From positions 1 to 35,535 of the forward strand of contig JAFSMW010000130.1 in assembly GCA_017447745.1 (NCBI GenBank): DNA of 35,535 nucleotides, in the 5' to 3' direction. Both the position numbers and the translations under genes were made by a program. Shown piece by piece: positions 12,562 through 12,860 of this stretch. The notes under the pieces are model-generated. The model was not told the origin of the DNA. It was given only the letters and a program-made list of their open reading frames with translations, and did not search any database. This DNA is from Thermoguttaceae bacterium. Its GTDB lineage: Bacteria; Planctomycetota; Planctomycetia; Pirellulales; Thermoguttaceae. How positions within the stretch are numbered: position 1 is the stretch's first letter; each line of letters opens with the position of its first letter.

Positions 12562-12590
12562 TTGCAAAGAATTAGAAGATTTATTATAAT
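12562..12590 (+). promoter_or_regulatory. Promoter of the structured leader RNA / giant surface protein
   Basis: TTGCAA (12562-12567), a 17-base spacer and a perfect TATAAT (12585-12590). Transcription would start near 12597, leaving about 358 bases before the ATG of the surface protein. Confidence 0.75.
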
Positions 12591-12596
12591 GCTCAT

Positions 12597-12860
12597 AATT
12601 GAGTTTTATACTTGATTATCGCGTCCCAGATAAAAACTTAGACACTTTTTGCGACGGCTCGCGAAAACAATAAGAGGGGAACTCTGTACATTTTTAACAG
12701 GGTTCGTCCTTATTTGGCATGATTCTATGCAATCATACTTTACTTACACACACGGAAAGATTCTCCGATTATGGGGAGTCTGCCGCGTGTCTGTGTAAGT
12801 GAGGTTGTCTAAGTCCTCTATCTGGGAGACATGTGAGCGCGCTCCCCGTTTTTCTTTCTT
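12597..12860 (+). ncRNA. Candidate structured RNA: riboswitch-like leader or small RNA
   Basis: The region downstream of the promoter can fold into a closed multi-helix domain. P1 is TCCCAGATA (12624-12632) with TATCTGGGA (12819-12827). P2 is ACTTAGACA (12636-12644) with TGTCTAAGT (12806-12814). Inside lie four hairpins: P3 12647-12667 (TTTTGCGA with TCGC-G-AAAA), P4 12669-12714 (AATAAG/CTTATT plus GAACTCTGT/ACAGGGTTC), P5 12719-12736 (ATGATT/AATCAT) and P6 12742-12800 (ACTTACACA/TGTGTAAGT, CACGG with CCG-CG-TG, then nine pairs including two G-U around the loop GATTAT). Linkers are one to five bases, giving a compact five-way junction. It does not match the consensus motifs I know for common riboswitches, 6S, tmRNA or RNase P. 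Whether it is a cis leader of the surface gene or a separate RNA is open. Confidence 0.6.
12824..12860 (+). terminator. Possible attenuator/terminator at the end of the structured RNA
   Basis: GGGAG (12824-12828) can pair with CTCCC (12842-12846), followed by CGTTTTTCTTTCTT. The stem is short and the T-run is broken by C. It shares bases 12824-12827 with the right arm of helix P1, so the two structures exclude each other. Confidence 0.35.

Follow-up and report, generated by a model that had tools for sequence, protein, structure and literature searches.

We find that a structured RNA encoded ahead of a giant surface protein gene in a Thermoguttaceae bacterium is laid out, like its relatives, in the manner of a cis-acting 5′ leader. 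Comparative sequence analysis suggests that it represents a class of transcription attenuators absent from Rfam, probably working as a riboswitch-like ON switch. In most copies a strong promoter comes first and a putative transcription terminator last; a second conserved pairing would break this terminator, and the RNA therefore probably determines whether polymerase goes on to transcribe the following gene. The window, by which we mean the whole stretch of DNA analysed, comprises 35,535 nucleotides (assembly GCA_017447745.1, contig JAFSMW010000130.1, positions 1-35,535, forward strand), and the RNA stretch within it covers positions 12597-12860. The earlier observation of a compact structured RNA at this site is confirmed, while its interpretation is partly supported.

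RESULTS

A compact structured RNA directly downstream of a promoter

The strong folding anticipated by the original prediction was borne out against dinucleotide shuffles. The minimum-energy fold of the 264-nt stretch reaches -99.1 kcal/mol, compared with -63 ± 4.7 for the shuffles (z -7.68), and none of 200 shuffles folded as low. The antisense strand folds more weakly (z -5.8). Both nine-pair helices that had been proposed (P1 and P2) are exact to the nucleotide, the four hairpins placed within them are present in the minimum-energy fold of the window copy, and the promoter with a 17-base spacer indeed lies directly upstream (Table 1). A terminator-like hairpin with a T run, located directly after P1 and clear in relatives, had been overlooked.

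Table 1. Features of the RNA in the window and of its surroundings (coordinates are positions in the window)
Feature	Position	Strand	Basis or remark
Sigma-70-type promoter, TTGCAA-17-TATAAT	12562-12590	+	10/12 consensus positions
P0 hairpin, AATTGAGT/ACTTGATT, likely transcript start	12597-12617	+	Fold; P0 covaries across the family
5′ linker TCGCG, one side of proposed pseudoknot P9 (partner CGCGA, 12660-12664)	12619-12623	+	Own-versus-swapped test
P1, TCCCAGATA (12624-12632) with TATCTGGGA (12819-12827)	12624-12827	+	Fold; 7/8 pairs change on both sides
P2, ACTTAGACA (12636-12644) with TGTCTAAGT (12806-12814)	12636-12814	+	Fold; 7/7 pairs change on both sides
P3 hairpin	12646-12667	+	Fold; relatives keep a GCGA-like loop or strand
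P4 hairpin, variable in the family	12669-12715	+	Fold; L074 and L079 without P4
P5 hairpin, variable in the family	12717-12730	+	Fold; L074 and L079 without P5
P6 long hairpin, conserved 3′-side bulge strand CGTGTCT (12786-12792)	12737-12805	+	Fold; P6a, 7/7 pairs change on both sides
P7, AGG (12802-12804) with CCT (12815-12817), encloses the P2 3′ strand	12802-12817	+	Covariation
P8, CGTGTCT (12786-12792) with AGACATG (12827-12833), excludes the terminator	12786-12833	+	Column scan, covariation, own-versus-swapped test
Terminator-like hairpin, GGGAG (12824-12828) with CTCCC (12842-12846), T run 12849-12853	12824-12853	+	Covariation of inner and outer pairs across the family; window copy weak
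Downstream gene, giant LEPR-like surface protein, 2614 aa	12955-20799	+	LRR, right-handed beta helix, dockerin and bacterial Ig domains

A family of related RNAs with patchy distribution

When the window and 15 homologous loci were scanned against Rfam 15, no family reached its curated gathering cut-off for the RNA itself, in keeping with the original view that the motifs of no common riboswitch or housekeeping RNA could be recognised. The GEMM covariance models, the T-box model and the ribosomal leaders in Rfam likewise gave no match in the window or in the homologous loci scanned. Integron attC sites, type III toxin-antitoxin RNAs, 6S, tmRNA and RNase P were rejected on account of wrong position, other downstream proteins and the lack of an Rfam match. 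An Acido-Lenti-1 RNA (RF01687) lies near one copy (L016:2407-2452, minus strand).

A DNA search identified a second copy in the same genome (C27:535-801) that shares 74% identity and also precedes a giant ORF with a LEPR-like start. Its P1 carries compensatory differences (CCCAGAUA/UAUCUGGG versus UCCUGAUGA/UCAUCAGGA). Three copies fold beyond their shuffles, with z of -7.7 (window), -6.2 (C27:535-801) and -5.6. DNA similarity alone recovered only this second copy and one relative; further blastn matches (L011-L014) proved on inspection to be chance.

Covariance models were built from the window and the second own copy (R1), from eight copies (R2) and from 22 copies (R3), and this stepwise refinement was used because MAFFT misaligned one sequence (G050) within P6. 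The covariance-model search of planctomycete genomes envisaged in the original prediction was productive: at E ≤ 1e-5, R2 returned 42 matches in 15 genomes belonging to four genera of the window's family, and R3 added a second copy in G117 to give 43. At the same threshold the window's own genome holds five copies and another genome (G055) sixteen. The majority of matches lay outside the training set, for example L073 at 205 bits.

Applied to 40 genomes of the window's family (six genera), R3 found copies in G104 and G117 only, and an order-wide search gave one weak match outside the family. A phylum-wide search of 392 genomes, with follow-up, yielded diverged copies in three further families of Planctomycetota (genus g192, in G433 and G556; G721; and G200) at 17-41 bits. 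Because these scores are so low, the weaker of the diverged copies rest on their structural parse, in which the 5′ side reads P1-AA-P2 and the 3′ side GG-P2′-CC-U-P1′ followed by a terminator, with helix sequences that are wholly different. Within the family of G433, copies are confined to genus g192. The spread over the Planctomycetota is patchy, with the proviso that the large searches ran with stricter filters and copies may be missed. Exact matches to the terminator pattern in Armatimonadota (L060) and Olsenella (L065) were rejected, there being no model match, as was one on a viral contig (L067), where the model matched only the terminator stretch selected by the pattern (18.9 bits, E 0.0057).

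Covariation supports a conserved core

Alignment of the copies points to a conserved core made up of P0, P1, P2, P3, P6, a GGN/NCC helix (P7) around the P2 3′ strand and the final terminator hairpin. The five-way junction described originally is specific to some copies and does not characterise the family: hairpins P4 and P5 are variable and sometimes missing, and in two relatives both are wholly absent.

Compensatory changes in P1, P2 and P6, on which the original prediction had staked its fold, are seen across the aligned relatives. In an alignment of 42 rows (A8), three of them weak or chance (L105, L106 and L067), 92.9% of the cells in P0, P1, P2, P6a, P6b and the terminator are paired, versus 71.8% in shuffled and 36-53% in slid controls; 35 of the 39 pairs show changes on both sides. 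A8 was fitted to the model and leans towards the structure, and the MAFFT alignment agrees for P1.

P7 and P8 were derived from the alignments, not from the fold. P7 joins GGY before the P2 3′ strand to RCC after it; the third pair is U-A in 26 copies, C-G in 9 and another combination in 2, and the distant copies carry GGG/CCC, GGC/GCC or GGU/ACC. The geometry of P7 and P2 is a structural question in its own right, a strand inside the loop of a three-pair hairpin also forming an eight-pair helix. For P9, the proposed pairing of the linker after P0 with P3, own pairings beat swapped pairs (p 0.002). Its partner is the P3 loop in most relatives and the P3 3′ strand in the window, where P9 is weaker for that reason.

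The terminator and P8 are mutually exclusive

The 5′ arm of the terminator can instead pair with the 3′ strand of P6 (P8), and both pairings are conserved. P8 covaries and was ranked by a blind de novo scan of column pairs that did not assume it. Across 42 sequences the own-partner score for P8 is 14.1, compared with 12.5 ± 0.35 for swapped partners (p<1e-4), a signal to which the relatedness of the copies may also contribute and part of which could be terminator conservation, because P8 and the terminator share letters. The two structures are close in energy (about -8 kcal/mol for the terminator and about -10 kcal/mol for P8) and thus form a balanced pair. The terminator of the window copy is weak (z 0.15); it overlaps four P1 pairs, and a terminator scan finds none there. 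Judged by energy, the terminator hairpin is nearly absent from three other copies (L080, L099 and L107). Conserved, mutually exclusive pairings are the trace that attenuation would be expected to leave, and comparison of the copies finds both an intrinsic terminator, weak in the window copy, and a conserved pairing that excludes it.

Nine copies from genus g192 (L118-L121, L126, L128, L129, L132 and L133) carry a second terminator-like hairpin (GCCCGAATCC...GGATTCGGGC) with a T run after the RNA. In the same nine copies, a stretch past the first T run (e.g. TTCGCGTC) is complementary to the terminator 5′ arm (GACGCGAA), and L120 has a matching change.

The RNAs lie between a promoter and a same-strand gene

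The copies are typically positioned between a promoter and an ORF on the same strand. A sigma-70 promoter that matches at least 9 of 12 positions precedes P0 in 86% of copies, mostly at a constant distance, versus 5% of random stretches. Of 36 downstream neighbours, 32 share the strand of the RNA (p 1e-6), compared with 21 of 36 upstream neighbours (p 0.41). From the RNA to the start codon the median distance is 70 nt; 17 of the 34 gaps do not exceed 69 nt, and few contain a promoter-like site. Two copies in G556 (L134 and L136; G556:C39:1278-1762) stand in tandem, each with its own terminators, before a single exported-protein gene. At L119, a ribosome site and a lipoprotein-like reading frame follow the second terminator after about 20 nt, and therefore there is no room for another promoter. 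The exceptions are L085 and L086, whose next gene is on the opposite strand, and L120 and L121, which have no close ORF.

Surface, exported, membrane and repeat proteins account for many of the downstream gene products. Pfam assignments comprise giant LRR/beta-helix/dockerin proteins, BspA-type LRR, beta-helix, Sel1, ankyrin and FGE-sulfatase, the rest being glycosyltransferases, PMT_2, zinc ribbon and PATR. The N-terminal sequences of further proteins point to signal peptides, as judged by eye, to lipoproteins or to Cys-rich peptides encoded near radical SAM genes. Many of the downstream proteins are short (70-300 aa). The protein behind the window copy joins a LEPR-like start to beta helix, LRR, dockerin and Ig domains. 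The proposed link to surface proteins holds for the two own-genome copies before giant LEPR-like ORFs and for many relatives before exported or membrane proteins, and fails for other copies, which precede ankyrin or zinc-ribbon proteins, glycosyltransferases or RiPP-like peptides.

Downstream of L094, L096 and L098 are small Cys-rich or Tat-type peptides, those of L096 and L098 beside radical SAM genes, in arrangements resembling RiPP clusters. In G055, a repeated intergenic element (translated ...ECLRLTELNTLRK...EELATRHGVTL...) with several occurrences in the genome is found downstream of L086 and L092.

DISCUSSION

Comparison of the copies shows the helices and the two pairings that compete, as well as the promoter and the placement in front of genes on the same strand. 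In the mechanism that we propose, a strong sigma-70 promoter would start the RNA at P0, and P1, P2, P3, P6 and P7 would form a compact sensor-like core, perhaps held by P9 (linker with P3). The nascent 3′ tail would then have two options. It could fold into the GGGA...UCCC hairpin followed by the U run, at which RNA polymerase would stop. Alternatively, the P6 3′ strand could capture the terminator 5′ arm (P8), in which case no terminator would form and polymerase would reach the gene. The ON signal would be whatever stabilises the core together with P8. We infer that competition between P8 and the terminator controls read-through, and that it does so in the ON direction. The copies have a conserved core and an expression platform upstream of an ORF; the core would serve as an aptamer, and what it senses may be a small molecule, perhaps a second messenger or another global signal, and not a protein or another RNA.

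That the downstream genes belong to no one pathway speaks for a global signal or against the sensing of a metabolite; the lack of a shared pathway is unusual for a metabolite riboswitch. Such diversity would also fit the same attenuation responding to a protein, a tRNA or another RNA, which might contact the conserved single-stranded linker and the P3 loop. We regard this version as rather unlikely, since a core as compact as this one, held by several tertiary pairings, appears more typical of an aptamer and Rfam gave no T-box or ribosomal leader match.

Less plausible is a multigene family of stand-alone, trans-acting small RNAs, to which the genes behind would be mere neighbours. Possession of its own promoter and terminator, the many copies per genome, the lack of a common downstream pathway and the missing same-strand neighbour of some copies would all suit such an RNA. 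However, the strand bias of downstream genes, with none upstream, the gaps that are often too short for another promoter, the tandem copies before one gene in G556 and the layout at L119 favour a leader, making a free small RNA improbable. Processive antitermination by a put or EAR-like element, whereby a modified RNA polymerase would pass its own and later terminators, would suit the very long surface ORFs of the window genome and the second terminators of the nine g192 copies, but it is very unlikely given that P8 offers a simpler local mechanism, that many downstream genes are short and that an unsystematic look noticed no second terminator in the window's family.

A cis-acting attenuator would have several counterparts among known systems. 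Riboswitches that act by transcription attenuation consist of a promoter, a structured leader, a terminator and a competing pairing ahead of an ORF; the new RNA has the same order of parts, and its downstream genes differ in sharing no metabolic pathway. EAR and put RNAs are structured leaders before long or surface-related genes, a position like that of the new RNA, which differs from them in size and structure and has a local competing pairing. GEMM riboswitches occur in several copies per genome, and the new RNA is similar in outline to these cyclic-dinucleotide sensors, as leaders before varied genes in which an alternative pairing would decide expression. Unlike them, it has no GEMM match in Rfam, a larger and different architecture, and pseudoknot-like P7/P2 and P9 pairings. 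The genes associated with GEMM-type riboswitches (c-di-GMP or cGAMP) relate to the environment, membranes and motility (PMC9262584). The Rhodopirellula-1 motif, likewise a candidate cis-regulatory RNA in Planctomycetes, is listed for Proteobacteria and Planctomycetes in a table that gives it no Rfam accession (PMC2864571); it may be identical to the RNA described here. Our best reading is of an RNA class absent from Rfam whose mechanism is of a known kind.

Almost nothing was found in the literature on RNA-based control in the Planctomycetota, about which little seems to be known, and we know of no described regulation of planctomycete giant surface proteins. As a tentative extension of the attenuator reading, the RNA could be an undescribed riboswitch class, patchily distributed in the Planctomycetota, in which one global signal sets a regulon of surface and exported proteins (up to 16 leaders per genome) through a P8 pseudoknot that captures the terminator arm. 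The many-copy leader family provides ready constructs for studying ligand and mechanism in vitro. That one leader is reused so many times within a genome suggests that the cell surface of planctomycetes living in the gut is under the control of a global signal.
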